A stretch of 31,086 nucleotides of DNA from Zoopage sp. CT-All (Eukaryota; Zoopagomycota; Zoopagomycetes; Zoopagales; Zoopagaceae). A model generated the notes under the pieces. It made no database searches, was not told where the DNA came from, and was given only the letters and a program-made list of their open reading frames with translations. Where the stretch lies: NCBI GenBank assembly GCA_004114245.1, contig QZWS01000064.1, positions 1 to 31,086 on the forward strand. The letters run 5' to 3'. A program made the translations under genes and the position numbers. Numbering within the stretch: position 1 is the stretch's first letter; each line of letters starts with the position of its first letter. Shown here piece after piece: positions 3,176 through 25,077 of the stretch.

Positions 3176-3556
3176 CTACGCGAGCATCTCACTGCGCTGC
3201 TTCCTTGCATATGCAATAGTGGCCCTTAATTTAGCATCGAGGCTTTCAGATGGCGGACCGGCTGCGAGCTGGGCTTCAATCTGGGCAATTTGCTTGTTGA
3301 GGAGATTGGGCTCGTGTAGTTCGTCCAAGACGCTGTTGTATGTGGCGGCATACACTTGCTGTCGAAGTGTTTCATCATATGTTTCCCTGACATCTGGAGG
3401 CTGGTGGCGTGTACGTTTGGGCTCTGGCTCTGGTGCTGGCTCCCTGGTATGCCCGCTTTGGACAACAGCTTTGTCGCGGCCAGCGGCATTGACTGAGGCA
3501 GAGATACAGACGACAGCAAGAGCGACGAGTGCAAAGGATGAGCAGCGGAAGAGCAT
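3176..3556 (-). CDS. small secreted hypothetical protein (126 aa)
   Basis: ATG 3556 opens a classical signal peptide (MLFRCSSFALVALAVVCISA, cleavage probably near VNA-AG). A charged Pro/Glu-rich linker follows (REPAPEPEPKRTR), then a helical, coiled-coil-like C-terminal half (QQVYAATYNSVLDELHE, then NLLNKQIAQIEAQLAA) ending in a stop at 3176. The frame stays open 59 codons upstream, but that part is low-complexity translation of the 5' region, so the Met before the signal peptide is chosen. No family is recognised. It is divergent from the small secreted gene at 3928, with 371 bp between the two starts, which presumably hold both promoters. Confidence 0.65.
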   Translation of the reverse strand: MLFRCSSFALVALAVVCISASVNAAGRDKAVVQSGHTREPAPEPEPKRTRHQPPDVRETYDETLRQQVYAATYNSVLDELHEPNLLNKQIAQIEAQLAAGPPSESLDAKLRATIAYARKQRSEMLA

Positions 3557-3927
3557 GGTTTCCTGTGAGTTGCAGTTGTGGAGGTGTAGTGTGCGGTGGA
3601 TGTGGGGCTGGTGGTCTTGATGGTTCAACCCCAATTCAAGCAGCCGGCCGACGCAGCCGGACCTTCTGCCGCCACCCGCGTCTGCCGCCCTCCCCTCTCC
3701 ACGCTCTGCCGCCGCACCTGGTGTTCGGCGCATTCAACCCACCGCAACGTCTCTGTTGCCTCTATCTGCCCGCTCATCCCTGCTGGAAACAGAGCCATAC
3801 ATCCTGAAAGCATCAGCTCCCACTGTTATCTGCACTCACCGCGCTCAGCAACCAGCCAACCAGCTATCCACTCGCCTGACCAGAAAGCAGCGTCGTGATC
3901 CATCACTCCTCATAACAGCAGCGTGTC

Positions 3928-4406: not shown

Positions 4407-6191
4407 ATGAGCCTGCAAGAGCTCAACCACGACGACATCCCCGCGCCGCTCTTGCCGCTCTCCCCATCCTTTGCTCCATCCATCTCTCGCATCGACTCGC
4501 TCAACTCGCGCCTCCAAGAGTCCCTGGCCATCGCGCACAACCAGCTCAACTCGCGGTCATCCTCCACGCAACCCCCCGGCGACTCCGATTCCGATGACCA
4601 TGCATCCAACGTCTCGCGCAAGGTGGCCCCACTCGAGGTAGCGACAATGGCACATCCCATACCGCTGTCGTCCTCGCACTCCCCCGGCATCAGGGGCGCC
4701 CGTCTGCACCTTTCCCCGCGTCCGGTCTCCGCCTACGGCTCCCTCTCCCATGATTCACCATCCCTGGCGCCCTCCCGCGACGCTGATGCCGCCATTTTGC
4801 AGCTAAAATCAGACCTAGCCACTCTCAACGCAAAGCTCATCCAAGAATCCTCGCTGCGCCAGCAGCTCGAGCACGAGAAGCTCTGCATCGAGTTGCAATT
4901 GGAGGATCTCTCCCAGTCGCTGTTCCAGGAGGCTAATAAAATGGTCGTGGACGTGCGGCGTGATTTATCCCAGAGCCAGGAGCGTGAGGTGCTGCTCGAG
5001 GAGCTGCTGCAGGAAAAGGCACACGAGGTGGAGCGGAAAGTCAAGGAGCGCGATGGGTGGAAAATGCGCTGGGAGGAGGAGGTCGAGGCACGACGCATGG
5101 AGAAGGAGATGGTCGAACAGAGGCACAAGGCGTCTGCTGCCGGCGCTGCAGTCGCCCGAACGCGTGCTCGATCTGGGGCGTTGCTTGATGACAGCGCGGT
5201 GAACGACGCCGCCCTTCCCGACGACGATATTTCTCCGATGCGAGTACGTGGGGCATCGCAGATATACGCGTCCTCGCCGTCAAATCTCATTGGGCCGTGG
5301 ATCGATCCCGTATCACTGCATTTCCGACCCACGGACCCCGCGTTCCTTGAGTTTGTGGAGTTCTGTGGACCAACAGCGCTAGCCGTTGGCGGAACAACAC
5401 TCAATTCGTCCGTGGCAGCACCGTCGGTGGGTGCATCTTTCGCAGGCTCCCCGCCCCCGTCTCCTGATTCCTACATGCTGCCGCACCCCTCTATTTTCAG
5501 CCAGGCGTCGGCAGCAGCGACACTCGCCCCAATCGAGGTCAATTGGAACGCGGTCTGGGCATGTAAATTTTCACGCCGTGTTCAACAGGAAGACGTTGAT
5601 TCGTGCTTGAAGTTTGCCGCGGCGAGCTGGAAAATGTCGCGCAAACTGCCCGCTGCATGCCGCGCTGGCTCCGTGTTTCTCGAGCTTGTGCCAGCCACCC
5701 CGTCACGCGCAGCAACGGCACCGGTGAGCAAGACTGCGAAGCGGCGCAGTTTCTTTTTTGGCGGGACTGTGGACGTGCTTACCGATCCGAGCGTTCCGTC
5801 ATCGCCGCTCCCTGACTCGGTGTGCGCCCTCTGTGCCGCTTCAACGCGAGCCGCGCACATTCCAGCATCGCCGCCTGTGTACCAGCTCCGATTTGACGGC
5901 GAACCGCCCCCAGCCTCTACAGATCTCGAGCAACTTGTGTGTTCTGACTGCCGGTCCCGGCTCGTTGTCGTGTGCGAGTTTTGGGCGTACCTGCGCATGA
6001 TCAAGCTCGGACTGGTTCGCCGGTCGCTTGTGTTCATCTGGGCAGAGGTGCAGCGGCGACGCGTCGGAATGTGGGCGGTCCGAAACGGAGTGCGATGGGT
6101 TTCATCCCCCGACGATCGGCGAGACTCGGGCGAGGTGGAGCACGGGTGGATGCAGGTCGATCTTGCCCAAGAAGCAGATGAGGGAACGTAG
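4407..6191 (+). CDS. Sec2/Rabin8-like Rab guanine nucleotide exchange factor
   Basis: 594 residues from ATG 4407. The frame is open further upstream, but that part is domain-free and overlaps the gene at 3928. Residues about 126-241 are a long coiled coil containing LEDLSQSLFQEANKMVVDVR, the Sec2 core that opens the nucleotide site of Sec4/Rab8-type GTPases on secretory vesicles. About residues 375-575 match the C-terminal half of Rabin8-type proteins, including two Cys pairs (CALC near 473, CSDC near 513) and CEFWAYLRMIKLGLV. The N-terminal 125 residues are Ser/Pro-rich and disordered. In this family the protein drives polarised exocytosis downstream of Ypt31/32 or Rab11. It lies head-to-tail with RasGEF A, 211 bp upstream of it. 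No intron is needed. Confidence 0.9.
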   Translation: MSLQELNHDDIPAPLLPLSPSFAPSISRIDSLNSRLQESLAIAHNQLNSRSSSTQPPGDSDSDDHASNVSRKVAPLEVATMAHPIPLSSSHSPGIRGARLHLSPRPVSAYGSLSHDSPSLAPSRDADAAILQLKSDLATLNAKLIQESSLRQQLEHEKLCIELQLEDLSQSLFQEANKMVVDVRRDLSQSQEREVLLEELLQEKAHEVERKVKERDGWKMRWEEEVEARRMEKEMVEQRHKASAAGAAVARTRARSGALLDDSAVNDAALPDDDISPMRVRGASQIYASSPSNLIGPWIDPVSLHFRPTDPAFLEFVEFCGPTALAVGGTTLNSSVAAPSVGASFAGSPPPSPDSYMLPHPSIFSQASAAATLAPIEVNWNAVWACKFSRRVQQEDVDSCLKFAAASWKMSRKLPAACRAGSVFLELVPATPSRAATAPVSKTAKRRSFFFGGTVDVLTDPSVPSSPLPDSVCALCAASTRAAHIPASPPVYQLRFDGEPPPASTDLEQLVCSDCRSRLVVVCEFWAYLRMIKLGLVRRSLVFIWAEVQRRRVGMWAVRNGVRWVSSPDDRRDSGEVEHGWMQVDLAQEADEGT

Positions 6192-6402
6192 CTATCCTCC
6201 TATGCAGTCATCATCGGCACGTTTGCTGAGTGTAGATAGCACAGCACGGCAATTGCAACATTCCGGTGGCAGTTTACGGGGAGCTGCGATAATCAACAAG
6301 GACTCGGTCATCGTTGCCGTGACCAGCCAGCTCCCTCCAGTCAAGGCAGCCGCAGTCCACCGGCCCTGTCTATCATCACCTCCCCACGCCTCGCCTCGCC
6401 GC

Positions 6403-9400
6403 ATGACCGCCGCGGCTGCGGTGCTCGCCGTCGTCGCCGCACACCAACCCTTCAATCCGTCCGAGCCCGACTGCCTTGCTCTCACCGCCGGCGATCGCAT
6501 CCTCGTCTTCAAGCACGACGCGTCCGGGTGGTCCTACGGCGCGCGCTCGGGCCCTGACCCCGCCCACGGCTGGTTCCCCGCAAACTTCTGCCAGGCCGTG
6601 GATGAAGACGAATCAAAGCTGGTGATGGAAGAGGAGGCGGAGCGGGCCGCGAGTCTGGAGCCCGGGAGTCTGGTCATGGCGGCACAGACGACACTGGCCT
6701 CCGGGAATTATCCCTCCGGGGCGTCAGTCTCCATCGGTGATGGATCATCCGTGCTGGGAGCAGCCGGGAGTGTGTTGGCAACTTCCGACGCAAGTGGTGC
6801 CGAGTGCGCTCTATCAGGCGAGCATAATCCTCCGAGAAGATTCCGCGCCACGCCAATTCTCACCGTCGCCACGAACATCGCATTCAGCAGTCCTAGCACC
6901 ACGGCGACCGCTGATTCCGCGGCCACTCTGGTCAGGCAACCAGTCGCTGAGCATCACTCGTCCTCGACAACCCAACGAAATACCCCGGCCTCACTCCTAT
7001 ACACGTTCCACAATCACCTCGCCGCGCTGACCTCTGCCTCCACCACCGCCAAGGAGAAGCATGTCGCGCTCCAGCAACTTTTGGCCGTCGTTCGCGCCCT
7101 CTTCCGAATCGCACCAACGTCATCCGACAAGGATGCGCGCGTCAAGGACATGAAGCGCGAAGTCATCGACGCCCTGCGCGAACTAGGCGAAGCAGGTAAA
7201 TTGCTGCTGGGATTTGGACGGAAACAAGCGGATCAGCACCGCCGCAATCGCTCCGACGAGACCCTGATCACGCCTCGCCACGAGCGCGACCTTTGGGATC
7301 AGCTGCGTGCACGAGCCGAGCGCGTTCGACAAGCCGTGGAATGGTATGTGGAAATGGTAGACGGCGAGCCCGAGATCGTGGAGCTACAAACCACGTCGCT
7401 CAGAGTCGCAGCGCAAGAGATGCCTGCGACTCCAACCAGTCCGACTCGAGCATTCGCCCTTGGTCTCAAAGGTGCTCAGCATAGGAGAGGGGCTAGTTCG
7501 GCGGACGTGGATCGTGCGCTGCTCACTTACCTCGACGAATTACACGGACAAGTTCGTGCTTCTGCCAACGTGGTCCTGCGCCGCCTTACGACCATCAAGC
7601 GAGAATCAGTAAGCTCGCGCATGACCTCTGCATCCACGGGAAGTGGAGGTGCATCGCGACTCTACGCCGAACTCTCCGAGCCAGTGCGAGACACACTGCA
7701 TCATGCTGGCCAATTGCTGTCCTTTGTCAGTGACCTGCGAATTCCAGATGCCGAAGAGCTGGTTGCTTGTCGCGATGATCCTGCCGCAGTTGTGCAGGCA
7801 TCGATGATCAACGCCTTTTCTCACCACCGTGAAGCTGTTTACGCAGAGCTCAACGATTTATTTACCACCGCCGCAACCTACGTCAATCTTCCGGCCGCTG
7901 CGGCGGGTGTTGCGGGAGCGATGCTTGCTGGTCGAGCATCGATGGACATCGAAGACTTGTCGTCGTCTTCGACCTCTGGCCTCATGCTCATCTCACAGGC
8001 TGTCACGAGCGTGTCATCTTCCGTCGGTGCGCTGGTCGAGGTTACCCGGACAGTCATCCCGCTGCAACGATTGCAGTCGCAAGCTGCCGAGCTGCAAAAG
8101 GCGGCATCTGATGCGCGTGCGATTGCGTCAAAGATAGCCCCGGAAACGCCAGAGTCGGCGTATTCATCAGGCTCGCCAATGATGCCAGCGGCGATGATTG
8201 CTGCCGGCATTAAAACCGCAGGGTTTCGACAAGAATCAAGCGAGCGAATGTCTTCACCGCTGATCTCCTCGTCCAGCATCACTTTCCCCCCCGTGAGATC
8301 TCAGTCGCCCAGTGCTGAGCGTCGATCTCCCGCTCCTATGCTGGTGTCACCTGCAACCGTGAGAAAGCTACGAGATTCAAGCAGCGTCGTTGCGCCGCAT
8401 CCGCTGCGCATTGTCACATCCACACAGAACGACCCTCCAGATACACCCGGACCTGTTGCTGCAGCCGTCGAGGGTACTCACCGAAGAAAGATTTCTGTTG
8501 CCTTGTTGGAAGCCATCGAGCAGCACGAACAACGTCGCATCCGTGCTGCCACACTCAATCCCACTCTTGCCCAGACACGCGTATTTAGCTTTGTCCAGCC
8601 ACTTCCGTTTTCCAGCCGGTATTCAGCATATTCGTCGCGAGCTGTCCTCCAAGGCACCGTTGAGTACCATGCGCCGGCTGAACTACGAGGCGCCAGCATC
8701 CATGTTCCCGACCGGCTGACGGAAGCCACATGGGGTTCTCGCGACAAAGCCGCTGCTGTGTCGAATGATGAAAGTAGTGCTTTGTTGCGGGTTCACGGTG
8801 GCAATGTATCAGGAGCAAGCCCGCTTGGTAATGCCAAAGTGATCAAATTCTTTGGCGTTGAAAGCCATGCTGCGAGAGCAACAACCGAAGTAGGTTTTGT
8901 GCGAGCTTCAGGCAGACCGTTTGACGAATGATAGGACCGGTCTCTCTGGTTTATTAAGCGCGGGTACCCACCTACGGATGTGACCTACAACATGGAGAAT
9001 CAGCTGACGGGCGGAACATGGGAAGCACTGGTTGAGATGCTTACTCCCCACGATGGGGCAGCCGGTGGGTCCATATTCATGTGGGTGTTGATCTTGATTG
9101 CGTATAGATCCTGACTATTCGTCGGTATTCCTCCTGACGTTCCGGTGCTTTTCTACACCTCAAAAGCTATTGGAAGCCTTGGAGAGTCGGTTTTTTCTGG
9201 TGCCTCCTCCAGAACTGAATCCGGACGAGGTAGCCGTTTGGACCGACCGCGTGCAATCCCCAGTACGCTTGCGAGTGTTCAATGTGCTCAAGAGCTGGCT
9301 CGAATCGTATTTCTTTGATGGATTTGATGATGCTTGCCTGGACAAGATGCAAAGTTTCGCCGAGATACATTTCACGGGGGCAATGAGCCAGAACGGATCA

Positions 9401-10438
9401 CGCCTAGGCGAGTTGATTGCGAGGAAGGCCCACCCTGCGGGACAGGTCACTGCGATCTCGACGGTAAACAAATCTGCACAGCATTTGACGGCCAAGCCAG
9501 CTGCTTCTGCGGATGGCCTTGCACCGAATCCCATCGTCACCAAGCAATTGCTCAATAGCTTAAGAAATCGGGCCTCGATTTCAATAACGGACATTGACGT
9601 GCTGGAGCTCGCGCGTCAATTGACGATTATGGACTCGAAGCAATTCTGCGCGATCCAACCGTACGAATTGATTGGGCTGGCATGGACGAAGAAGGACAGC
9701 CGTGTAGCGGTGAATGTGCGCAACATGTCCGCGTTTTCGGTGAACATCACGACTTGGATAGCGGAGCAGATTGTCTACGAAACGGATGTGAAGAAGCGGG
9801 CTGGGATTCTCAAGTACGCGATCAAGCTAGCAGACAAATGCTCGCAACTGAACAACTACAACACTCTGATGTCGATTCTGGGCGCGATCAACTCGACGAC
9901 GATCGAGCGACTGTGGAAGACGTGGGCGCTCGTACCGAACCGCCACAGAGTTGTCCTGAGCGAATTGCGAAAATCGTCGGACCATAAGAGAAATTATGCC
10001 GAGTATCGAGCACGACTGCGCGATTTGGCACCGCCTGCAATTCCCTTTGTTGGACTGTATCTGACGGATCTGGTATTCACAGCCGATGGAAACCCGGACT
10101 ATCGTCGACCACTGCTTGTGTTGGACAAGGAGAATCCGCCCCAGATCATTAATTACGACAAGTATGCGCGATCGGTGCGCATAGTTCGGGAAATGCAACG
10201 ATTCCAAGGGCAGCCGCACGCATTGCAAGGGGTGGCAGAGGTGCAGGATTGGGTGCGGGAGGGAATGGAGAAGGGAAGGAGTGGCGGTGATGTTGCCAAG
10301 CTGTTTGAGCAGAGCCAGTTGATAGAGCCACCAGCGGGTGTGGCGATGGCTGCAGGAGCTGGCGGCCTAGGGGCTGCGGTGAATCATGTACCACTGTCGC
10401 CGGTTCAAGAGGAGTTTGGAGCAGGCGCACGCGGATGA
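6403..10438 (+). CDS. RasGEF A: Cdc25-type Ras exchange factor (SH3-REM-RasGEF)
   Basis: Three exons: 6403-8889, 8935-9064, 9108-10438; introns of 45 and 43 nt (GTAGGT..TAG, GTGGGT..TAG); 1315 residues. ATG 6403 immediately precedes an SH3 domain (about 7-67: GDRILVFKHDASGW, GWFPANF). A long helical and Ser-rich middle follows, then the KVIKFFG element conserved before the REM domain of fungal Cdc25 proteins. REM (RasGEF_N) covers about 830-960 (LWFIKRGYPP, LTGGTWEALVEMLTPHD, VFLLTFRCF). The catalytic RasGEF domain covers about 1030-1275 (LELARQLTIMDSKQFCAIQP, NITTWIAEQIV, IPFVGLYLTDLVF). It should load Ras with GTP and, in fungi, feed adenylate cyclase or morphogenesis pathways. The last 40 residues are Gly/Ala-rich. 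The intron between KVIKFFG and the REM tryptophan is required, because exon 1 otherwise stops at 8931. Confidence 0.92.
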
Positions 10439-10511
10439 TGAAATTGCATTTGTATTGCGTATTGTATATCGTGAAAGGCAGCATAGCTAGCCTTGATGCA
10501 ACATTCCCTTA

Positions 10512-11897
10512 TTAAGCCGTGGAGGATAGCAGAAGGGTGTTCTGGGCACGGTCAAGGATGACGGCGCCTAGCGTCCAGCCAAGGTCACTGCCGCCCAAGT
10601 CGTTGCTCCACCGAATGGGCTGCGAGAATGGGATGCGAAATGCGAGGGATGCGAGCTGTACCATATAGACGGCCTCAAAGCACACCCGATACAACTCGTC
10701 CTCGTCCTTGATATGACCAAAGTGGGAACGAGCCGTGGTGATGTCGAGAACGGTGCAGAGGCGGTTGGATGTGTCGCGGAGACACGACAGCGGTGCGGTG
10801 TGATCGTTCTCAGCCGTAGCACATTTGAGCTTTTTGGCCATACGAGCAAAGCTTGACACCGCGTAGATAGGCATGTGCGAAGGAATGACGGGCTGGTAGA
10901 CACCAAGGACGGAGCAGGGTGGTTGAGAGCAGAGCGGGGCGGGGGAAGGCAGCAGCAGGGAAGAGCGGATGAGGCGAGCGCAGGCTTTCGGGGAGCCGGT
11001 GCCTTGCACAACGACGGTGGTATCGGTGGACGTTCCCGAGGCGCTATCGACATTAATGGCGGTGACGTTGTAGGGTGCCGTGGTGGCAGAAGCCACGCGC
11101 CAAGAGCATGGATCTGGGATAGGCATGTTCTCGCCCCCACCGGACTGCTTAGACTTGAGCGCGGAATAGTACCGCCCACGGGCTTGCACTATACCAAGGC
11201 GTAGGTATGAGTGGGTGTAGATGGCGCGTGGCAGGGCGCCCGGCAGCTGTAGGGGGTAGCCACCAACAAGCGGTGGCTGGTCTTTGGGCGGCTCGAACGC
11301 AATCTGCGTACTCGCACCCCCGAGGTCAACGTACGCCACGGTGGAGAGTGTGCTCGATACCAGTCGGTGGCTCAGGTGATTGGCAGTTAGCCAGCCACTA
11401 AGGGCCTCTTGATCGCCGGAGATGGTCGTGGCCGCAGTATGCTGGTCAACGATAAATGGAGTGTGTGCACGCATGGCAACGCGAGCTGCGCGCATGAGAG
11501 CAAGGCGGTGAGTCTCAGAGACGAGACGCATGCCGGCAGTGGCGCGCAGGGCAATGACAGTAGCGTTGTGATGGCTGGCTGGGATGGCATTGGTGGCGGC
11601 AACGAGCAGCGGCGTAAGATAGGCGTCTACAGCCTCAGGATCGAGTGAGGCAATTCCAGGCTTTGTCTCAACCGACCACTGGTCGGAGCGGGTGACATCC
11701 GTGGGCAGAGGAGTGATGGCGATGGGATGAGCCGCAGGCGCGGTGTAGATGTAGATGCGTGTGCCGGTCGACCCAGCGTCCATGATGACCGAGTATTGCG
11801 TGGTATCGTCTATGACGGGGGGTGAGGAGGCGGTGTCGACTGAGGCTGAGGCTGTGGCCGCGGCCAGGGCAACGGCGGCGAGCAAGCGCAGGAGCAT
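10512..11897 (-). CDS. GDA1/CD39-family nucleoside phosphatase (apyrase 1)
   Basis: 461 residues from ATG 11897, which starts a signal peptide (MLLRLLAAVALAAATASAS); the frame upstream of it is ordinary promoter DNA. Apyrase conserved regions are present in order: ACR1 DAGSTGTRIYIY (about 40), ACR2 ALRATAGMRL, ACR3 SGDQEALSGWLTAN with the catalytic Glu, ACR4 YVDLGGASTQIAFE, ACR5 DLGWTLGAVI near the end. No second membrane segment is seen, so the enzyme is probably soluble in the Golgi/ER lumen or outside the cell. There it would hydrolyse nucleoside di- or triphosphates (GDP/UDP for glycosylation, or extracellular ATP/ADP). It converges on RasGEF A (73 bp between stops) and diverges from the gene at 12160. 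A paralogue lies at 23264-24832. Confidence 0.93.
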   Translation of the reverse strand: MLLRLLAAVALAAATASASVDTASSPPVIDDTTQYSVIMDAGSTGTRIYIYTAPAAHPIAITPLPTDVTRSDQWSVETKPGIASLDPEAVDAYLTPLLVAATNAIPASHHNATVIALRATAGMRLVSETHRLALMRAARVAMRAHTPFIVDQHTAATTISGDQEALSGWLTANHLSHRLVSSTLSTVAYVDLGGASTQIAFEPPKDQPPLVGGYPLQLPGALPRAIYTHSYLRLGIVQARGRYYSALKSKQSGGGENMPIPDPCSWRVASATTAPYNVTAINVDSASGTSTDTTVVVQGTGSPKACARLIRSSLLLPSPAPLCSQPPCSVLGVYQPVIPSHMPIYAVSSFARMAKKLKCATAENDHTAPLSCLRDTSNRLCTVLDITTARSHFGHIKDEDELYRVCFEAVYMVQLASLAFRIPFSQPIRWSNDLGGSDLGWTLGAVILDRAQNTLLLSSTA

Positions 11898-12159
11898 CAC
11901 GGGCGTCAGAATGGTTGATAAGGGCCACGTGGAATACGCAGTCAGCGAGATCGTAGTGAATAGCTGTGCAAGACAGCTTATGAGCCTGCTGAGGGCTGCG
12001 GCACGTGGCCGGACTTGATCATATGTTGTATCTGACCATGTGTCATAGCGCGTCACACAGGTAATTAATATGTGCACACGTGGCAGATTCGATTCGTGTA
12101 GCCGTTTCCCGATTTGGCTCACGATTCATTTCGTATTTCGATATGGCATTCCCCTACAA

Positions 12160-12492
12160 ATGTCCTCCGCTGAACCCACGCCCCGCGTCACCATCTACGG
12201 CTCGTCTGTTTCCGGCAACCGCAAGGTCAAGGACGCGCAAACCCGTGCCACCAATGCCCTCCTCGCAAACAAGATTCCCTCTGTCTTCCGCGATGTCGCC
12301 GCGGCCGAGCAGGACAAGGCCTACATGCGCAGCAAGAACAACGGCGCAACTGCCCTTCCCCAGTTCTTCACTGACGGCGAGTTTCGTGGTGTGTGGGAGC
12401 AGATGGAAGAGGCCATCGAGGGTGGGTATGTGCATGAGTTTCTCGGACTGGATCAACCAGCGCCTTCTGCCGCATCTGACCAAGGTGCCTAA
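12160..12492 (+). CDS. SH3BGR-like thioredoxin-fold (glutaredoxin-related) protein
   Basis: 110 residues from ATG 12160. It shows the SH3BGR/SH3BGRL pattern: a beta strand VTIYGSSVSGN, a helix with basic residues, KIPSVFRDVAA, then the cis-Pro segment ALPQFFTDGEFRGVWEQMEEA and the terminal HEFLGL. The CxxC of true glutaredoxins is absent (YGSSVSG in its place), as in SH3BGR proteins, so a redox function is unlikely and a binding or scaffold role is more probable. There is no signal peptide, so it is cytosolic. The C-terminal 12 residues are Ala/Ser/Pro-rich. It is divergent from apyrase 1 (262 bp between starts) and convergent with RasGEF B (157 bp). Confidence 0.85.
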   Translation: MSSAEPTPRVTIYGSSVSGNRKVKDAQTRATNALLANKIPSVFRDVAAAEQDKAYMRSKNNGATALPQFFTDGEFRGVWEQMEEAIEGGYVHEFLGLDQPAPSAASDQGA

Positions 12493-12649
12493 TCGAATGC
12501 ACTGCGCTATTCACACGAACCAGGAACTGCGCACCAGACACTATGCGCATGTCTGTCGAATCACATCCAGCACACTCACCGCTGCAGCTGTGAAGCACGA
12601 GAAGCAGACAACCGATTTCTACTTTTACAAGGACAATTACGCTCCCAGA

Positions 12650-15600
12650 CTATTCCGCATCGGCATATCCCTGACCATTGGAGAAAACTGGGCTCTGAAG
12701 CTCGTCGGTCGGCGAGTCGGGATCACCGCTCTGGGTCTCCTCTATGGGAGGTGAAGGCTGCGGCGGCATCTGCGGCACGAATGATGACTCTTCGCGCGGC
12801 TCAACCTGCAAGCTCAGGCTATACAACGCATCGGAGTCGCCACCCGAGACGCTGCTCTCGAACGACTCCTTGAGCCAGGTAATCATTTCCGGCACCTTGG
12901 TCAAGTTGTACCGCTGTTGAAACTTCCTCATATCTTGGATGATGCGCACGGTCTTGACGTACTTGTCGAAATTGACCAATTGCTTGGTCTCTGGCTGACC
13001 AGGGACAAAGCCTGGCGGGCGTCGGAAGTTTGGATTGCCATCATCCATGAACACAACGTCCGTGAGGTAGAGCCCAAAGAATGGAATACATGGCGGGTCC
13101 ATGGCACGAATTCGCGCCCGATACTCGGCGTAGTTGCGGCTGTGATCGACGGCTTTACGAAGCTCGTTCAGCGTTATCATGGACTTTGACTTACTTGATA
13201 GGTACTAGATAGTGTCAGCCCATTGTCAGCTTAATGTCAGCGTAGCCGCCGCCTAACTTACCGCCCAAGTCTTGCGAAGGCGGTCAATCGTCGACGAGTT
13301 GAGTGCACAGAGAACGGCAACGAGAGAGTTAAAGTTGCCCAGGACAAAACATTTTTCGGCCACCTTGATGAAGAATTTGATAATGGCAGAGCGCTTTCGT
13401 GCCTCGGGCTCCTTCAAAATGGTTTCGGCGACCCACGTGGTGATGTTATTGGTCAGCGAGCTCATCGCACGGACATTGACAGCAACGGTGCTCTCCTTGT
13501 TCATAAACTCTTGGCCGACCAGCTCAAATGCGTGAATGGCGCAAAAATGCGTGCTGTCCAGCAGTGTGAGCTGCCGTGCAAGTTCGAGAGGGTCAAGGTC
13601 GACCACGTTCACCTGGCGCTGACGCAGGTTATTGAGCTGCTGCCGAGTTATGACTGGCGTCGGCGCTTCTCCCGACTTTTCACTGGACGTAGCGGCAAGA
13701 ATTAATCGATCAATCGACTTTGACCGCGACATTCGAGCAGTATTGGAGCGGGCCGCAACCACGGTAACAGCGGGCTGCGAGCCTCGGCTGCTCTACAAGA
13801 CACATCAAGCAAGATCATTGCAACATTTGCAGCAGTACTCGATTTTGAATCAAATCGCCAAGCCGGGCAGAGTTTGACGGCATTGCCTCTCGGATGGTGC
13901 CATTCTGCGCGAAATCGATCATGAAAGGAATCGCGGCATCATCAACGCTGTCGAAGAAGTATTCCATCAGCCACGTTTTGAGAATGTTGAACACACGCAG
14001 CCGTGTCGGCATCTGCTTTCGTTGTCGCCAATTCGCAAGTTGCTCAGGAGCTAGGCCGTCGGGAGATGGACGATCGTAGCGCTCGACTAGGCACTTGAAA
14101 AAATGCTCAGGAGTGGCATAGCAGCGGAAGGTCAGCATAAAGACCATGGAAAACTCGGCATCTTATGATCAGCGTCAGTGAAGGCAAAGGAAGCGCAGCG
14201 CACCAATGGCAGTGTCGTGCAGCGTCAGTCGCTCGACCAGGGCCTCAAATGTGCCGCCGGTCACGCCGTTCTCCAAATTAAACGTAACGTCGTCTGGCTG
14301 ATAGTCGTAGCGTAAATACCATGGTGTCGTGTTATCAACGTCTTGGGCACCAGGTGTCTGACCGTCAAAGAATTTAATGACGCTGGCGCCCTTCGGCGCT
14401 GCAGGCTGGGCAGACGATACGGGAGACTGAGGCAAACTCAGAGGCGCGACAGCATTCGAATACTCTTGGCCGGGGCGAGGGGAGCTTGATATGGACGATG
14501 CCAGTCCATATCCCGCCTGATGCTGGAACACACCAGCACTTGCGCTCCGATTCATGGCCATGTCGATCGAGCCGGGAACCTCGCCGGCAGCATGGGCTAA
14601 TCGACGATACGGCATGGTGGCCGATGGCTGATGGAGTGGGATGGCACTCGGAATCGGATTGGACGAGGCAGCGAGTGCCTGGGCGCGAATCGCTGCAGGG
14701 GTTTGGGCAGACGACTGCATCGTTGTTCGACGCGGACCAGGCGCAGGATGTGACGGACCAGAGTTCAGCTGCTCATTTGATGGGGTTTGGTTGCGAGCTG
14801 CCATGTGCTGCAGACTACGAGTCTTGCGACGGAGCGCAAGCAGATCTGTCGTTGCGTTCGTAGAGATGCCTGCTTTGAAGCCAACGTTATTGGCCAGCAG
14901 CACCTCGACGAGTTCGCGTCGGCGCACAACGACCTTGGCGCAGTCCACCACCGAATCGGTGCAAAGCAGGATATCACGCACGGTCATGAAAATGTTCTCG
15001 ATAAAGTTGACTGGTGGGAGCGCACCGCCAACTGCCATACGCGCCGAGTTGAGCAGGTCGTTGAGCAGATTATAGAGCGCATCGCGGCGCGAGCCGAACT
15101 CTTCCAGCGGATCCTCGAGTGACTGGCGAATGGTGCGCGCTGGTATCGTGCACTCGTCTTCGGAAGTGGCGTCGTCAGCATCTGGGGTGAGCAGGTCGTC
15201 GGGTGCGCGAAGATCTTCCAGAAAAGAAAGCAGCTGCCCCGTCTTGTTCACTGTGTCTTTGACGCCAACAAGCAACGCGTCTGCAGTCAGGCGCTCCGAC
15301 ACCGGCTCGGACGAGTTGGGAGACTGCGAGACTGCGTGCAGCTCGAGCGACACCCGGCGCATCAGCTCGCCACCAACGCGGTTGATCACGCGACGATACT
15401 CATCAAGCTGGGCTATAAAAGCCTCTTCGCGGGCCTTGGCGCTCGTTTCGCCGAGAAACGGGAGGTTGCTTTCGTTGGCAGCGTCTGGACTGTGCGGAGC
15501 AGCATTGTTTGTCGGTAGCAGCCTGATGCGTTCTCGCTCAAGGGCCTCTGGGTCGAGGAGGAGCGGGAAATTCTCGGTCAACTTAACAAACTGCTTGATG

Positions 15601-16677
15601 CTATGGAGCACGGCCATGGCCTGATGGCGAAGGTGGTGCACAGCATCCGAAGGTGGCCAGACACCGAGCGCGACGCGGGCCGCAAGAGCGAGCTGATTCA
15701 AAGCACCGACAATTTCACGGCGTTTTTCGGCCAGAGAGGGATTGTCGTGCAGTGCGGGCGAGTTTTCCTGCAGGATGCCGCAGTAGGCAAACACCAGGCG
15801 GCAGGAGAGCGAGACGTCATTTGTAAGGCGCGCGAAACGAGACTTTGAGCTGGCTCCTGCGACGGCGAGTTCCGAAATGGGCTGGATAATGCAGTTGACG
15901 AGGGCATCAAACGTGGGCTCCGACGTGGTGTCGATGTGCTGATCGACGGGTGAGGCGGACGTCGCGACGGGCAGAACGGACATTGCTGCATAAATCGGAG
16001 CGGTGTTTGGCGGAAGACTCTTTTCGGTTGGATGCGGCCGACCAGTAAGCGTGGGCAATCGCGGGCGCATTGACTGAGATGCCGCACCATTGGTGTCGAT
16101 AGAAAGCTGATGGCTGCGAGGAGAGTGCGACGAAAAGGGGCGGTCATCCGCCGGACGCACATCATCGATATTCCAAGTGGTGGCATCGGTGACGGTGTTA
16201 TGATAGAATACACGACCGTCGGCGGTAAACACTGCCTTCCAGTTGGCGGGTAGGGCGGCGAATCCGCCACGATTCTCGCCACTGGCAAGATCCGTGATGG
16301 CGGCTGCAGGCGATGTGACTGGATAGCCCACGATCGATGACACCCCTGTGCTGCTTGCACCATTGGTGGTCGGCCCCGGCTGGGACTCGCTTTCCATCAT
16401 GGCCAACTCCGCCAGCGCCTTCTGAGCGATGCTTTCTGGAGCATTGCCGACGTACTCGCTGGGGAACCACCCGCGCTGGCCACTGCATACTCCGTCCCAC
16501 CATCCGCTCGCATCTCTGTTAAACACAAGGAGAATATCTCCGCGACGAAAAGGCAGGCATCCGGGCTCGGTGGGGCTGTACGTGTGCAGCGCTAGGGAGG
16601 GTTACAGGGCGCAGGACGTGGTGTGGGAACGTACCCTGCACGACATCGACGGATGTTTGCGGACCTTCCGTTAGCAT
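12650..16677 (-). CDS. RasGEF B: Cdc25-type Ras exchange factor (SH3-WW-REM-RasGEF)
   Basis: Five exons on the minus strand: 16677-16635, 16591-14204, 14161-13839, 13792-13262, 13204-12650. The sum is 3840 nt, or 1279 residues. Introns are 43, 42, 46 and 57 nt, all GT..AG. The first intron splits the SH3 domain: exon 1 ends DVVQ, exon 2 gives ALHTYSPTEPGCLPFRRGD then FNRDASGWWDGV and GWFPSEYV. A WW domain follows at about 128-160 (LPANWKAVFTADGRVFYHN, TTWNIDD). Later come the VIKFFD element, REM (about 775-915: PWYLRYDYQPDDV, LVERLTLHD, VFMLTFRCY) and the catalytic domain (about 975-1220: LELARQLTLLDSTHFCAIH, RNYAEYRARIRAM, CIPFFGLYLTDVVFMDDGNP). It should activate Ras; the WW domain suggests recruitment by Pro-rich partners. 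The start lies 574 bp from that of RasGEF C, in divergent orientation. Confidence 0.92.
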
Positions 16678-16813
16678 TGGTCCAGTGGCGTGTTGCATTC
16701 TTCAAAGCGAATACGGAATCGGGGCAAAGGACGGAGATAATGGCGCCAAGGCAAGGTGGAAGAGCACGATAGCGATGCAGCCAAGAGGATGCCACGGGGT
16801 CTGACACCCACAG

Positions 16814-17214
16814 TTAAGCACCAGCGGTTGCTACAGGGGGAGCGCCGGCGAAGGGAAGCCTGCGGCGAAAATTCGGGCGTAGACAGGAGGCGTTGCGGGT
16901 CGAGCAGGGTGTGAAGATGGCCGCGACAAGTTGAGAAAAGCAGCCATAAATAAAGCGCTGCACCGAGGAGTGAGTGCCGCCGGCCAGACTACCCTGGAGC
17001 TGCTCCAGAATGGCTCCGATTGCATTGCGCAGATTGGTCGATGCAGGTAAGCCATGTGTATTCGGCGCTGCTGACTGCGCCTGAGCGAGTGTCAACTGGC
17101 CAATCAGGTGGCAGCATGATGCCTCGGCTTGCCTCATCTGCCCTTCCCGCCAACGACCTGCGGCTCGCTGCGAACCTGTAAAATTTCAGCGTAAGTATCT
17201 GTGCGCGGCCCCAT
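16814..17214 (-). CDS. possible small two-exon gene of unknown function
   Basis: A 107-codon frame starts at ATG 17137 and ends at 16814. Splicing an upstream exon (17214-17176, MGPRTDTYAEILQ) across a 38-nt GT..AG interval (17138-17175) extends the N-terminal helix in frame, giving YAEILQMRQAEASCCHLIGQ and about 120 residues in total. Later segments (RNAIGAILEQLQGSLAG, VQRFIYGCFSQLVAAIF) look amphipathic and helical. No family is recognised. Against it: the putative start is only 37 bp from the divergent start of RasGEF C, and the donor (GTTCGC) is weak. It may be a real small adaptor-like protein or chance coding in a bidirectional promoter. Confidence 0.35.
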
Positions 17215-17251
17215 TCCGCTTCATTTGACCCGACTGTAGTGCATTCCCGCT

Positions 17252-20200
17252 ATGAAGTCGTCGTGGGGGTTCAAGCGCAATAAGGATTCAAACGTATGTC
17301 CTGCGTCGCGGCCCTCCCGCGACTGCCCTCCTCCGCTCACCACGCTTATTCTCCCCTAGTCTGACGCATCCTCTCCGCTCGAGACCCAGCATGTCGATGG
17401 CATACCGCGTGGGCACCAGATCCTGGGCAGGAGTAAAACAACGCCGCTGCCCGACATCGCCGTCTATGACAACACTGCTGCATTTCATGCCGGTGAATGC
17501 GCGAATAATATGGTGTCGCCGATGCCACAGGCATGGTCCGCGTCACCCGCTCCGGTCTCTGCAACGATTTACCAGTTCCCGGACACGGTAGCACCCACAC
17601 AGCCCGCCCCATCCTCCAACGACGAACTCATCCTCAACACTGCATCGCAATACATGCGCAATCTCGCCGAACTCATCTACGCAGCAGAAGAGACCGCCGC
17701 CACCCAGCAGCATCCCGTGCTGGAAATGACCGATATCGCCGCCACCTCGCTCAATCTCTGCCAAGACCTTGTCAAAGCCGTTACCTCCCTGCGTGTCCCC
17801 GGATCCCTCTTGTCCTCTCCCCACCGCACTGCAAGCGATAAGCTCGCGCTCAGCTGCAAGGATATGCGCAAGCGAAAGGACGAGTTTGAGCGCCAGGCGA
17901 AAAAGGTTCGTGAGCTCGTCACCAAGATGAACTCGGTCAGCGCTCGCGAGGAAATGAACGCTATCAAGGATTCCACCATGGCAATGGTGTTTCTACGCGA
18001 GCGAGCCGATAATATGGTCGCGTGTGCTGAGATCGTAGTGCAGTGCAAGGCCGAGGTTGTGTTCCTCAACAGTCAGCCGGCGCCACTCGTCTCATCCTCC
18101 ACCATGCCATTGCCAAGGAGTCATGGCCGAGCCAGCAGTGATCTGCCGCTACCGTCCTTTATTCCTCCCCGTAGCAGCTCCCTCGAACGTAATGGCGATG
18201 ACAGCGGCGGACCGCCATCCTCCACTGGCCTCAGTGTCCTCGGTTTGCGTCCTCGTGCCGCAACGGATCTTGGCCGTGGACGCGACAACACAGTCAAGGA
18301 TACCGGTCTGCTCCATCTTGGGCCAGAAAGGGAAAAGAAGCGATCCATCTCACCCATGCCTGGACTCAATACCCTCAAGGGCATGCTGCGCAGACCGTCG
18401 GTTCCCAACGTGGATGCAGCGACGCAGCCTTCCTCCGCTCGCAGCGAAACCGACTCATTTCCCGCGGTTTCCAGCAGTCCCTTTTCAGGCGGGTTCTTCA
18501 TGCGCCGTCCATCAGCTCCAGCTATCGTGCATAAGCATATGTCCACCAAGTCAGATGCCAGCGACCACTCGAACTCGCGGCCTCGGGAAGGCGGCGACGA
18601 CAGTGACAGCGATAGTGACAGCGATAGCTCTCTTCTGAGTGACCCACAGCAAGAAGACAATGTGGATGATTCAGACGTTGGCAATCATCCGCAGAATTCT
18701 GCCGAGGCTGGATTAGAACGTCATGTCACTGACGATCCAACGAATCACGATGCAGATGCTGAAACGCAGGCGGCTGCAGCGCGTACTGCTGGTGACAAGT
18801 CCACGACACCATCTCCTACTCGTGAGAGCGAAGAGGCAGCAAGCTCCAACGACGAGCACAGCTTGCTGGAAGACTCGGACGACGAGTACATTGACTCCGA
18901 GGAGGAGCGGGAGCGGATTCTTGCTGCTTCCAAAGTACGCAAGGCGTCCAAATTCCTCGGAATGGATGAAGAGGATATCCAGGAAGCGCAGGTTACCATC
19001 ATTGTAAGTACAAAGCAGGTTCACACTGTCTGTCTCACTACCCTGGCAGACGGAGCGCGAATGGTTTTTGAACTACGACTATGGCTCCAAGGATGTCACA
19101 ATCAACATGGAGGGCGATGTCACCGGAGCCACTGTTGATGCTCTCATTGAGCGCCTTACCATTCATGACTCGATGCCGGACCTGAATCTCTGCAAGGCCT
19201 TCTTTCTCTGCTTCCGCTGCTTTGTCAATCCAGTCGTATTGGCCGAAAAACTGGAGGCTCGGTTTCGTATTCAACCGCCGGATGGGCTTGTCGAGGGCCC
19301 GCTGGCGCTCTGGCGAGAGAGAAAGCAGACTCCGATCCAGACGAATGTGATTTCAGCGCTCCGCAGTTGGCTCGAAAACTATTGGATCCCAGACACAGAT
19401 GACGACGCGCTGGAGGATATCCTCGAGTTTTTACAGCATGACGATTTGGAAGAATTCCCCGGCACCGAAGGCCTGTTAGATTTGGTTGAGCGACGAGTAA
19501 GTCGGTGGTCGTATAGGCAGATCTCAACTGACTGGCTGTGCTAGATGGAGCTGGATGCGGACGATCCAACCAAACCCAAACTGGCATCGCTGCGATCGCG
19601 GAAGGAGGCGTCCGAAAAGATGCTTGGCTTGTCGGATTCGGTGCCGTCGACTTTCAAAGTGCCCGCCAATCCGATTGACATTGACCCGGTCGAGATCGCC
19701 AACCAGCTGACGCTGATGGATAGTCGCCTGTTCAATGCCATCACGTCACGCGAGCTTGTGGGTCAGGAATGGTCGCGGAAGAAAGGCAGCCTGGCTGTTA
19801 ATGTGCGGGCCATGTCTACGCTTGCGACGCAGATTACGACATGGGTTCAAGAGATGATTCTGTTTGAAGAGGATATAAAAAAGCGCGTCAGCACGATCAA
19901 GTTTTTCCTCAAGGTCGCCGATGTAGGCTGCAGCTTTTTTCTGATTTGCCTTGACACGATTAGCGATGTCTTGTCGTCAACAATTACGACACGCTTTTTG
20001 CAATCATGACCGGACTCAATATCTCGAATGTTCAAAGATTGAAGAAAAGCTGGAAGCTTCTGCAGCCAAAGTACATGGCGCTCCTGGAAAAGCTGCAGGC
20101 TTCGTCGGACTACTCGCGCAACTATGCAGCCTATCGACAAACGCTCAAAACACTATCGCCGCCCTGTCTGCCATTCATGGGCGTATACCTCACAGATCTG

Positions 20201-20458
20201 ACCTTTATCGACGATGGCAATTCGGGTGTGCGCCGAACGTCGGACGTCGATCGAGTCATGATCAATTTCGGCAAGTATTTGCAGACGGTGCGACTGCTGA
20301 ACGATATCCTTCGATTTCAAGTCGACGATGCGTACAAGCTGCCGGATAACCCAAATCTGCAGCTGGCAATCAAGCGCTGGGTGGAGAACTCTTTTACTGG
20401 GGGCGATGAGAACAAGCTGTATGAGCAAAGCCTGAAAGCGGAGCCTCGCGGATCGTAA
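17252..20458 (+). CDS. RasGEF C: Cdc25-type Ras exchange factor without SH3 (REM-RasGEF)
   Basis: Five exons: 17252-17293, 17360-19003, 19050-19496, 19545-19922, 19964-20458. The sum is 3006 nt, or 1001 residues. Introns are 66, 46, 48 and 41 nt, all GT..AG and all phase 0. The first exon encodes only MKSSWGFKRNKDSN. No SH3 or WW is seen. A helical region (about 100-245) resembles the middle of RasGEF A and B. A Ser/Asp-rich acidic stretch (DSDSDSDSDSS, DSDDEYIDSEEERER) precedes KASKFLG. REM covers about 565-710 (EWFLNYDYGSKDVTINMEGD, ALIERLTIHD, FFLCFRCF). The catalytic domain covers about 755-990 (VEIANQLTLMDSRLFNAI, ADRCLVVNNYDTLFAIMTG, CLPFMGVYLTDLTFIDDGN), with a shorter loop after RR than its paralogues. 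It presumably activates Ras through a different localisation route. The stop codon overlaps a perfect splice donor (GTAAGT at 20455), so a further 3' exon is possible. Confidence 0.92.
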
Positions 20459-20698
20459 GTGCAGTAATATATGGCTTGTGTAATGCGGCTCAGAGGCGGT
20501 TTGCTCAGGGCATGCAGCCAATCCCATAAAGCATGTGCAAGACAGTACTCCCCTGATGCCCAGGACGGGGGCCGGGTGTTAACGCGGTAATAGAGAATGT
20601 ATGAGACGACGATGTAGCGCAAATGATCGCTGAACTCGGGTCAACGGTAAAATGAATTTGTCACTCCTAATTTATCAGCTCCTCGCTCCGACACCACG

Positions 20699-20706
20699 TA
20701 TATACC
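20699..20706 (+). promoter_or_regulatory. TATA box of the secreted Ser/Pro-rich protein gene
   Basis: The sequence TATATACC follows CACCACG and lies about 30 bp upstream of ATG 20735, so the leader is very short or initiation is just downstream. Position and match to TATAWA are the evidence. Confidence 0.5.
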
Positions 20707-20734
20707 GCCAATCATTACACCGCCCTATACCAAC

Positions 20735-21349
20735 ATGCGCGTGTTAATTTCACATCTGTCGACGATTGTACTGCTGGCTGTTGTCACGGCGCCGCTCTCT
20801 GCGGCAGTGGGCATCGACCTCTCCACTGCAGAGGCTCCCGTGGAGTCGCCGGTGCATTTTAATGCCGCGTCCCAGTCTGACTCGGCAGTGGCGCCCCTTC
20901 ATACTGCCGCTGTCGCGCCGCCAACGTCGGTGCGCACTACTGCTGCCCCATCTCCGAATCAGCGCACCACTGCCTCCGTCGCCCATCGTCCAGTTCCGCG
21001 CGTTGTCCCGGACGGCCGTGGCGGGTTCCGCCCCGCACCACCCTCAACGATACAGCCCACCAACATCCGTGATTTGCCCCCTGGTCCGGCGCCGAATGGG
21101 AGACGGTGGGTAAGGGGTTCTCGAGGCGATTGGCATCTGGTTGAGACTCTTCCGAGCTCTCAGGCGGCGATGCCAAGCACTGGCACGACCGCGAACGCTC
21201 CGTCGTCGAGCAGGTCTGCTACTCCGCGTCCGCGTTCCAACGCTACTCGGCGTCCATCGTCTAGTACCTCTCAGCGCGCGTCCAGTCGCCCGAGCTCTAC
21301 CGCACGCCCACGCCCGCCGGCACCGGCTCCGGCTCCTGTGCGCCCTTGA
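20735..21349 (+). CDS. secreted Ser/Pro/Arg-rich hypothetical protein (204 aa)
   Basis: ATG 20735 begins a signal peptide (MRVLISHLSTIVLLAVVTAP, cleavage near LSAA-VG). The mature chain is low in hydrophobics. A Thr/Ala/Pro-rich half (PPTSVRTTAAPSPNQRTTA) is followed by RVVPDGRGGFRPAPPSTIQP and PNGRRWVRGSRGDWHLVE, the only compact stretch with aromatic residues. The tail is nearly pure Ser/Arg/Pro/Thr ending PAPAPAPVRP. It is probably O-glycosylated and extracellular or wall-associated, without a GPI signal. The VPDGRGGFRP/PNGRRWVRG segments look like two degenerate copies of one short motif. No family is recognised. Confidence 0.65.
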   Translation: MRVLISHLSTIVLLAVVTAPLSAAVGIDLSTAEAPVESPVHFNAASQSDSAVAPLHTAAVAPPTSVRTTAAPSPNQRTTASVAHRPVPRVVPDGRGGFRPAPPSTIQPTNIRDLPPGPAPNGRRWVRGSRGDWHLVETLPSSQAAMPSTGTTANAPSSSRSATPRPRSNATRRPSSSTSQRASSRPSSTARPRPPAPAPAPVRP

Positions 21350-23263: not shown

Positions 23264-24832
23264 TCAATTAGAAAGCCAGTCATCTGGCACCGCTATATTT
23301 TCCGCTGAACCGCGCAAGCCACCAGGGCCTACTGCGGCATAGCTAGGCAGCGCGGATGCCGACAGGCTTTGGAGTTTTGAGAAGCTTCGATCGAGGATCA
23401 CAGCACCCATCGTCCAGCCCAACTCCTTTCCTTCCCAGCGATCACTCCATCGGATCTTCCGCTTCAAGGGAATCCGGAACGCAGTTTGAGCGATCTGCAC
23501 AGCAAAGTTGGCAATGAAGCACATGCGGTGTAGCTCATCCGAGTCCTTGATGGTCGGGTATTTTGCCATGGCATCGTTCAAGCTCATCCTGCACCGCTCG
23601 TTTACCGCATTGGAGAGGCATTGGAGCGGCGCAATGTAGTTGTTACTTTCCGTGGCGCATCCCATCTGCTGGGCCATTTCAGCAAAGTTTGACACGGCAT
23701 GGATTTCCATATGCTCGGGAATGCTGGGCTGATAAACGCCATGAATGGCACACGGAGGTTGCGAGCAGAGGATGGGCGATGCGGGCATAAGCAGTGCTCT
23801 ACGAATGTTTAAAGCGCAGGCTCTCGGGACGCCGGTGCCGATGAGGTTGACCTTGTTGGTGGTGGCCGTACCTAAAATATTGTCGACGTGTATTGCAGTT
23901 CCGGTGTACGGTGATCCCTTCCAAGCACATGGATCCGGAATCGTGCTGGCTTTCGGGAACAATTTTTGCAGGTATGCATAGTAGCGTCCACGGGCCTGGA
24001 CAGCGCCGAGACGCAAGTATGAGTGTGTATAGACGGTGCGTCGCGGCGAATGTGGCAGCATTAGTGCAAAGTCGCCAACGAGCGGGGGCTGGTCCGGTGG
24101 CGTCTCGAACGCGATCTGGGTACTCGCACCGCCAAGGTCGAGGAATGCCACAGTGTTGTTGCCGGAATCAAGCGAGGGGTCCACAGTATGTTGGGGTGAG
24201 GGGTCCACAGTGTGTTGGGGCGAGCTGTCCTTCTCGGCAAGTCGATTCAGCAGGCTGTTGGCTGTGATCCACCCGCCAATGCCCTCCAGCTCACCAGAGA
24301 TGGTGAATGCAGAGGTGTTTGGATCAACTTCAAACTTTGTCTGTCTGCGCATGGCAAGGCGTGCTGCCTTCATAATGTCGATGCGATCTTGCTCCGGAAT
24401 CAAACGCATTCCAGCGGTGGCGCGCAGCTGGATAATGGTGGCTGGATGGCATTCAGCGGGAATGCGCTCGCTGGCAGCCTGGAGGAGCGGCGCGAGGTAG
24501 GCGTCCACCTCCTCGGCCTTGATGGAGGAGATGCCGGGGAACTTTTTCACGGCCCACTGGACCTTGGAGTGATCGTTTTGCGGAAGCGGAGTAAAATCGA
24601 CTGTCGATTTCGGCGACGTGTATATTGCGATGCGCGTGCCGGTCGACCCGGCGTCCATGATGACGGAGTATATGATTGGGGCGGCAAGGCGACCAGAGGC
24701 AGTTGAAGTCGGCGCGGCAGCAAATGCGGCGGGGAGATTTCCAACGGCGCCCTGGGGATGTGAAGCGACATTGACGGATGCCGCGAGTGCCAGAACCAGG
24801 GCAACGGCGGCTATATGCAAGCGGAGGAGCAT
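23264..24832 (-). CDS. GDA1/CD39-family nucleoside phosphatase (apyrase 2)
   Basis: 522 residues from ATG 24832, the start of a signal peptide (MLLRLHIAAVALVLALAAS). Conserved regions in order: ACR1 DAGSTGTRIAIY, ACR2 QLRATAGMRL, ACR3 ISGELEGIGGWITAN with the catalytic Glu, ACR4 FLDLGGASTQIAFE, ACR5 ELGWTMGAVI. It is clearly a paralogue of apyrase 1: shared MLLRL start, HSYLRLG.VQARGRYY, CSQPPC, GVYQP.IP.HM. It differs by a longer Ala/Pro-rich linker after the signal peptide, a duplicated octapeptide SPQHTVDP between ACR3 and ACR4, and a 35-residue C-terminal extension. No C-terminal membrane segment is evident, so it is probably luminal or secreted. It would hydrolyse nucleoside di- and triphosphates. 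Confidence 0.93.
   Translation of the reverse strand: MLLRLHIAAVALVLALAASVNVASHPQGAVGNLPAAFAAAPTSTASGRLAAPIIYSVIMDAGSTGTRIAIYTSPKSTVDFTPLPQNDHSKVQWAVKKFPGISSIKAEEVDAYLAPLLQAASERIPAECHPATIIQLRATAGMRLIPEQDRIDIMKAARLAMRRQTKFEVDPNTSAFTISGELEGIGGWITANSLLNRLAEKDSSPQHTVDPSPQHTVDPSLDSGNNTVAFLDLGGASTQIAFETPPDQPPLVGDFALMLPHSPRRTVYTHSYLRLGAVQARGRYYAYLQKLFPKASTIPDPCAWKGSPYTGTAIHVDNILGTATTNKVNLIGTGVPRACALNIRRALLMPASPILCSQPPCAIHGVYQPSIPEHMEIHAVSNFAEMAQQMGCATESNNYIAPLQCLSNAVNERCRMSLNDAMAKYPTIKDSDELHRMCFIANFAVQIAQTAFRIPLKRKIRWSDRWEGKELGWTMGAVILDRSFSKLQSLSASALPSYAAVGPGGLRGSAENIAVPDDWLSN
24178..24225. repeat. in-frame 24-bp tandem duplication within apyrase 2
   Basis: Two near-identical 24-bp units (GGTCCACAGTATGTTGGGGT and the copy with GTGTGTTGGGGC) encode SPQHTVDP twice on the minus strand. 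The units differ at about two positions, so the duplication is recent. Confidence 0.85.
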
Positions 24833-25077
24833 GGGGTTGGCGGTGGAGAGTTGTGTCGCAAAGGCCGGGCCAGTTGTCGGGCTTCCCCAGTTTATGCTCG
24901 CCAGGCTGCAAATCTCGTGCATTGCAGGTTCTGCAGTCACTTGAAGCGGCTGCTGTGTGTAGCACTGGCGCACCAGCCAGCATTCTCTTTTATCCATCCT
25001 GATCACTACACCACTGTCACCGCTACATGAATTCTCTCGCATAAGAACACCCAATCTTCATTTCACGAGTCCATGGA

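Follow-up and report, generated by a model that had tools for sequence, protein, structure and literature searches.

Layout of the locus

Contig QZWS01000064.1 of the fungus Zoopage sp. CT-All (assembly GCA_004114245.1) was analysed as a window of 31,086 nucleotides, which is one whole contig (C312) without any N in an assembly of 8.62 Mb and 419 contigs. Within this window, four genes for exchange factors of small GTPases lie close together: a Sec2-type Rab guanine nucleotide exchange factor (GEF) and three Ras GEFs, here named A, B and C, all of them confirmed by gene models that were made from the sequence and then scanned with Pfam. The three Ras GEFs are likely to be anciently separated relatives within the fungal SH3-class (Cdc25/Bud5 type) family that have been kept as neighbours, with B as the conservative copy, A degraded and C devoid of SH3, WW and DUF7783, the last of which is probably homologous to the FAT domain of animal Cas adaptors. 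An initial annotation of this DNA had proposed the succession of a Rab GEF and Ras GEFs A (+), B (-) and C (+), with an apyrase (GDA1_CD39) and an SH3BGR-like gene between the Ras GEFs, and this order is borne out by gene models and Pfam. The features are the following, in window coordinates:

4407..6191 (+): Sec2/Rabin8-type Rab exchange factor gene, 594 amino acids (aa), single open reading frame (ORF) (Pfam)
6403..10438 (+): Ras GEF A, 3 exons, 1315 aa (gene model, Pfam)
6439..6588 (+): SH3 domain of A (Pfam)
8935..10165 (+): REM and RasGEF domains of A
10512..12125 (-): GDA1_CD39 apyrase 1, ORF (Pfam)
12049..12492 (+): SH3BGR-like gene, ORF (Pfam)
12650..16677 (-): Ras GEF B, 5 exons, 1279 aa (gene model, Pfam)
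16449..16591 (-): SH3 domain of B, first residues in exon 1 (Pfam)
16170..16253 (-): WW domain of B (Pfam)
15573..15920 (-): DUF7783 of B, predicted four-helix bundle (Pfam)
14874..15440 (-): second helical bundle of B
12960..14264 (-): REM and RasGEF domains of B, intron-interrupted
16678..17251 (no strand): B-C intergenic region, 574 bases
17252..20458 (+): Ras GEF C, 5 exons, 1001 aa (gene model, Pfam)
18580..18925 (+): acidic Ser/Asp/Glu-rich stretch of C, approximate limits (translation read by eye)
19119..20278 (+): REM and RasGEF domains of C
23264..25057 (-): GDA1_CD39 apyrase 2, ORF (Pfam)

The exons lie at 6403-8889, 8935-9064 and 9108-10438 (+) for A; at 16677-16635, 16591-14204, 14161-13839, 13792-13262 and 13204-12650 (-) for B; and at 17252-17293, 17360-19003, 19050-19496, 19545-19922 and 19964-20458 (+) for C, whose 5' end is the least certain part of its model. 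All ten introns are of the GT..AG type and measure 41-66 bases, some of them falling inside the catalytic parts of B and C. A and apyrase 1 are arranged tail-to-tail, while B and C stand head-to-head with their start codons 574 bases apart. In the B-C intergenic region, a short ATG-started stretch at 17012-17040 (+) runs up to a GTAAG donor, and by eye it has no in-frame splice to C.

Domain content and expected activity of the three Ras exchange factors

The REM and catalytic domains previously attributed to all three proteins are confirmed by Pfam, with E-values for RasGEF and RasGEF_N (REM) of 1e-56 and 8e-25 in A, 1.5e-59 and 4e-22 in B, and 3e-58 and 1e-22 in C. The targeting parts differ as had been claimed. 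Indeed, B carries an SH3 domain (E 2e-11) and a WW domain (E 1e-8), together with DUF7783 (E 3.5e-16); its N-terminus, used as a query of 755 residues, aligns with relatives in chytrids and blastoclads over a stretch that runs from residue 10 to about 473, or in some cases to 564. The SH3 domain of A sits at the detection limit, as SH3_9 gives 30 bits at a cut-off of 30, SH3_2 gives 22.8 against a cut-off of 21.8, and SH3_1 stays under its cut-off. In particular, A reads AHQPF instead of the usual ALYDY and GWSYG where B has GWWDG, so that its SH3 lacks usual aromatic positions, of the kind that take part in ligand binding. The N-terminus of A matches B weakly (24% identity over residues 10-449). 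In C, a long N-terminus with an acidic stretch precedes the REM domain, and SH3, WW and DUF7783 were all undetected in the Pfam scan of the gene model. A profile of DUF7783 (A3) scores 140.5 bits in B, 1.3 in A and 3.2 in C. A REM domain stands ahead of the catalytic domain in all three, and an N-terminal SH3 is present in B and, barely, in A; gene C is called a relative of the SH3 class and not an SH3-bearing member of it.

The differences among the N-termini had been described as a specialisation of input. They are real, but loss describes them better, as SH3, WW and DUF7783 are widespread in relatives: in a set of 42 sequences, which was chosen for carrying the helical region and includes the piece from the window, SH3 is present in 32, WW in 34 and DUF7783 in all 42. 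The joint presence of SH3, WW and DUF7783 is inferred to be the ancestral state; all three occur in B, are eroded in A and are absent from C. The copies appear to differ mainly by the graded loss of one regulatory module, plus the acidic stretch in C. B would represent the conservative plan, in the order SH3, WW, FAT-type helical bundle, second bundle, REM and Cdc25, and A would follow it with its SH3 degraded and its helical region eroded.

As to catalysis, A, B and C share with human SOS1 the REM-Cdc25 core and the helical hairpin, and several of the hairpin residues that act on Ras in SOS1 are conserved in the alignment of all three. SOS1 K939 and R826 are not conserved in them, the position of K939 being F in 11 of 11 fungal rows, and W729, a residue of the allosteric site of SOS1, is kept neither in A, B and C nor in any of the seven further fungal rows that are not gapped at this position. 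SOS1 carries a Dbl/PH part, which is absent from A, B and C. The three proteins are probably active Ras exchange factors, each of which would use the helical hairpin in the usual way to release GDP from Ras. Given their N-terminal differences, they probably take input from different upstream partners and act on the same small set of Ras proteins; the assembly shows one canonical Ras that ends in CAAX, on contig C36.

Phylogeny and shared introns

Protein searches with the catalytic parts returned, at E <= 0.001, 781 proteins for A, 1,387 for B and 439 for C. The best 120 of each were examined, and the named proteins among them are nearly all fungal. The closest relative of A among the matches listed comes from Syncephalis plumigaleata (47% identity). 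Catalytic-domain trees were built from 114, 65 and 49 of 322 regions (319 plus A, B and C), and a full-length tree from 34 proteins. They contain two deep fungal clades, clade I being rich in SH3+WW proteins and clade II (support 100/100) including proteins named Cdc25 and Sql2, such as Sql2 of Ustilago and cell division control protein 25 of Talaromyces; the free trees place A, B and C in clade II. The Syncephalis gene joins A and B in one clade, with support of 100/94 and 99/93 in catalytic-domain trees and 100/98 in the full-length tree. C is a long branch whose position within the trees is not fixed; its placement in clade I is not rejected in a comparison under LG+F+G4 (p 0.19).

An exclusive A+B+C clade is rejected in the catalytic-domain trees (approximately unbiased test, p-AU 0.0011 and 0.0027) and not quite rejected in the full-length tree (0.0665), whereas A+B+C+Syncephalis is not rejected (p 0.094 and 0.0585 for catalytic domains, 0.288 for full-length proteins, 0.155 under LG+F+G4). 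The proposal of local duplication stands insofar as A, B and C are relatives within one fungal class that carry different N-termini, but a simple duplication in this lineage is not supported: a recent local triplication, which would make A, B and C an exclusive clade, is rejected by both catalytic-domain trees and not by the full-length one. The catalytic-domain phylogeny that had been suggested as a check falls between its two foreseen outcomes, as the three genes do not form a single young clade, yet do not separate clearly into three ancient classes either.

Intron positions within the catalytic part add to this picture. Each pair of genes shares one intron in the same alignment column: A and C a phase-0 intron, in a gapped stretch ahead of the start of the row of B; A and B a phase-1 intron; and B and C a phase-0 intron. 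The simplest reading would be an ancestor with all three introns, of which each copy lost a different one, and such a history favours an old duplication at the DNA level.

Linkage in other fungi and in the genome

Cdc25-type genes of fungi had been described as normally unlinked. Co-location in other species was judged from contig sizes in the search tables, which cover the best 120 matches per search and are not a census, so that linked pairs elsewhere can be missed. Five hand-picked species with at least two listed members each carry them on different contigs (Fimicolochytrium jonesii, Rhizophlyctis rosea, Calcarisporiella thermophila with five members, Piromyces finnis and Allomyces macrogynus), in agreement with that statement, which does not hold for two Basidiobolus species and for a Terramyces gene model. 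In B. ranarum, the SH3-less P0012 and the SH3-bearing P0023 (K7432_002067 and K7432_002068; domains rescanned) are linked and have adjacent locus tags; in B. meristosporus, the SH3-less P0008 and the SH3-bearing P0025 share one contig. The remaining listed Basidiobolus members, four per species, are on other contigs. Terramyces sp. JEL0728 P0001 (1912 aa) joins an SH3-bearing GEF and then an SH3-less one, with two WW, two DUF7783 and two REM domains in total; its catalytic halves are sisters in the tree, and it reads as a recent tandem copy or fusion. Linked copies of the SH3 class thus recur in early-diverging fungi. Like the window, both Basidiobolus pairs combine SH3-bearing and SH3-less members of the class on one contig, but they consist of two copies and not three, and their SH3-less copy, unlike C, retains DUF7783. 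Compared with the SH3 class in general (S. cerevisiae Cdc25 and Bud5, Aspergillus fumigatus GefA and GefB), with which all three genes share REM and the Cdc25 catalytic domain and A and B also the SH3, the window is distinguished by three linked copies, by the absence of SH3 from C and by an SH3 in A without the usual aromatic positions. In the literature searched, outside which most subscription papers fall, no Ras GEF cluster in Zoopagales is described. Taken by itself, this group of old, linked paralogues is of moderate interest.

Within the Zoopage assembly, the RasGEF profile gives eight rows that correspond to five loci, three of them in the window, and the REM profile gives four loci, again three in the window. 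By arithmetic, the chance that two more such genes fall within about 14 kb of the first in 8.62 Mb is about 1e-5. The locus counts are lower bounds, as the assembly probably lacks part of the genome, no more than two Rab-like genes having been seen by reading. Small genomes occur in zoopagalean fungi (PMC10386755), and the small assembly, together with the kinship of A to the Syncephalis gene, is in line with a fungus of this group. The two other Ras GEF loci, both absent from the trees, were considered as cluster members and discarded: on C366, REM and GEF lie about 3 kb apart, as in proteins of the LTE class, and on C56 no REM was detected in the profile search of the assembly. RasGAP matches occur on four contigs, none of them that of the window, and RhoGEF matches are likewise on other contigs.

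Origin and maintenance of the cluster

A local triplication in a common lineage with Syncephalis, followed by fast divergence of C, would account for the tight linkage of A, B and C and for the fact that a clade of A, B, C and Syncephalis is not rejected, and tandem duplication within the class has occurred elsewhere, as the sister GEFs of Terramyces P0001 illustrate. The corresponding trees, however, lie 5.7 to 7.4 log-likelihood units below the free catalytic-domain trees and 4.7 below the full-length one, and the clade of A, B and C alone is rejected as stated above, so that this origin appears rather doubtful. Somewhat more credible, though still short of an even chance, is that an SH3-bearing gene of the A/B type and an SH3-less gene of the C type were already linked before Basidiobolus and Zoopagales split, in which case 002068/002067 of B. 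ranarum and P0025/P0008 of B. meristosporus would be the same pair. This arrangement, with A, B, Syncephalis and the Basidiobolus SH3 copies on one side and C, the SH3-less Basidiobolus copies and Dimargaritales on the other, is the best tree under LG+F+G4, where it exceeds A+B+C+Syncephalis by 7.4 units and rejects no grouping; under LG+C20, placing C with the SH3-less group changes the likelihood of the free tree by less than 0.5 log units (0.46 lower; 0.01 higher). Moreover, the Basidiobolus SH3 copies group with A, B and Syncephalis (support 94/78, 93/87 and 84/95), and the Basidiobolus partners are themselves linked. C also shares two catalytic motifs with few others (6 and 4 of 322 regions, C counted), yet both were chosen by eye, the Basidiobolus copies are not among the ten nearest to C when rare residues in common are counted systematically (152 rows), and no grouping is significantly better than its rivals. 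The orthology of C to the SH3-less Basidiobolus copies, as read from the two motifs, was thus given up and survives only as part of this alternative.

The proximity of the Rab GEF had also been taken to suggest a linked control of Ras signalling and polarised secretion, with the Rab and Ras GEFs held together for this purpose. The Sec2-type protein is well defined (Sec2p E 9e-10 and RAB3A-like_C E 2e-12 in Pfam; SEC2 in the PDB at E 2e-4), with a coiled coil and a Rabin8-like C-terminal domain, and it is the sole match of the Sec2p profile in the assembly. Adjacency is the only sign of a Rab-Ras coupling, which was therefore dropped as a candidate, and the head-to-head B and C, with 574 bases between them, could share a promoter. 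On the other hand, Sec2 is an ordinary gene that the genome shows only once, other genes lie in between, and the RasGAP and RhoGEF matches are elsewhere, making a functional cluster very improbable. The favoured explanation remains that of three old relatives of the SH3 class retained side by side.

DUF7783 as a probable FAT-type domain

The N-terminus of fungal Cdc25-type proteins holds a domain labelled as being of unknown function, DUF7783. In B, this predicted four-helix bundle is probably homologous to the FAT domain of p130Cas, and the second helical bundle also appears FAT/vinculin-like in its predicted fold. Sequence similarity to known FAT domains emerged through the family profile and not with B alone. 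This profile comprised B and 18 of 41 relatives (alignment A2); of 22 pieces, four were omitted, two because they were near-copies or looked poorly aligned and two without particular reason. The FAT identification is a trait of the wider fungal family that B of the window has preserved, and it is a more valuable result than the cluster. No description of DUF7783 as FAT-like was found in the literature searched, most subscription papers lying outside the search.

In animals, the FAT domain of Cas binds NSP proteins at their Cdc25-homology domain, so that CAS adaptors (p130Cas/BCAR1) and NSP proteins (NSP3/SHEP1) bring SH3, a FAT four-helix bundle and a Cdc25-homology domain into one system, as the fungal chain is predicted to do. 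The fungal GEFs are a single chain where animals employ two proteins, the domain order is not that of CAS adaptors, and the fungal chain adds REM, an apparently active Cdc25 domain, WW and the second bundle. The title of PDB entry 3t6g names a CAS-NSP complex. SH3 and FAT in the fungal protein would represent a localising and possibly self-regulating part. More tentatively, fungal SH3-class Ras GEFs might be a one-chain counterpart of animal Cas-NSP, with FAT touching the Cdc25 domain of its own chain as Cas FAT touches NSP3; adhesion signalling in animals and nutrient and polarity Ras signalling in fungi would then share one ancestral module, and the window would offer a natural series (B intact, A eroding, C having discarded it) in a neighbourhood perhaps as old as Zoopagomycota. 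If DUF7783 is a Cas-type FAT bundle, it provides a testable idea for how fungal Ras activators are placed and restrained, and for the origin of the animal Cas-NSP pairing. A, B and C side by side allow a within-genome comparison of an activator with the module, with an eroded one and without it.

Other genes and elements

The window holds the only two GDA1_CD39 matches in the assembly (10554-11807 and 23372-24670, both on the minus strand), which are 51% identical. Each apyrase follows a Ras GEF on its downstream side and in the opposite orientation, and A with apyrase 1 and C with apyrase 2 are alike in this, so that duplication of a GEF-apyrase block was considered as a candidate history. 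A gene at 29663-31042 (-) has a phosphatidate phosphatase APP1-type catalytic domain (Pfam). Signal-peptide-like starts or GPI (glycosylphosphatidylinositol)-like ends were seen by eye in the ORFs 785-1783 (-), 20651-21349 (+), 25078-27771 (-), 27786-28526 (-) and 28664-29503 (-), all five without an NCBIfam match at E 0.05, and the contig looks rich in secreted proteins. A further predicted secreted protein at 3179-3556 (-) belongs to a family with a near-constant start (MLFRCSS...) and very different bodies. This family has 31 own-genome matches including that of the window (e.g. L036-L042), most of which span only the first 25-55 residues, and the DNA just 5' of the ATG is conserved too in the seven readable of eight loci; it looks like a fast-diversifying secreted family.

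On another contig (C286, in G000), three Ras-like genes at 2386-2862 (+), 3216-3701 (+) and 11557-12039 (-) have a switch II without DTAGQE, and CAAX is absent in the two with visible ends; they are possibly Ras-like pseudo-GTPases. Finally, 22445-22999 (+) of the window is a remnant 3' end of a retrotransposon resembling long interspersed nuclear elements (LINE-like), with 20 genome matches including its own. One match (C250) lies within a long reverse-transcriptase-like frame with YADD, and by eye a similar LINE-like tail stands beside the Ras GEF on C56 (L013).
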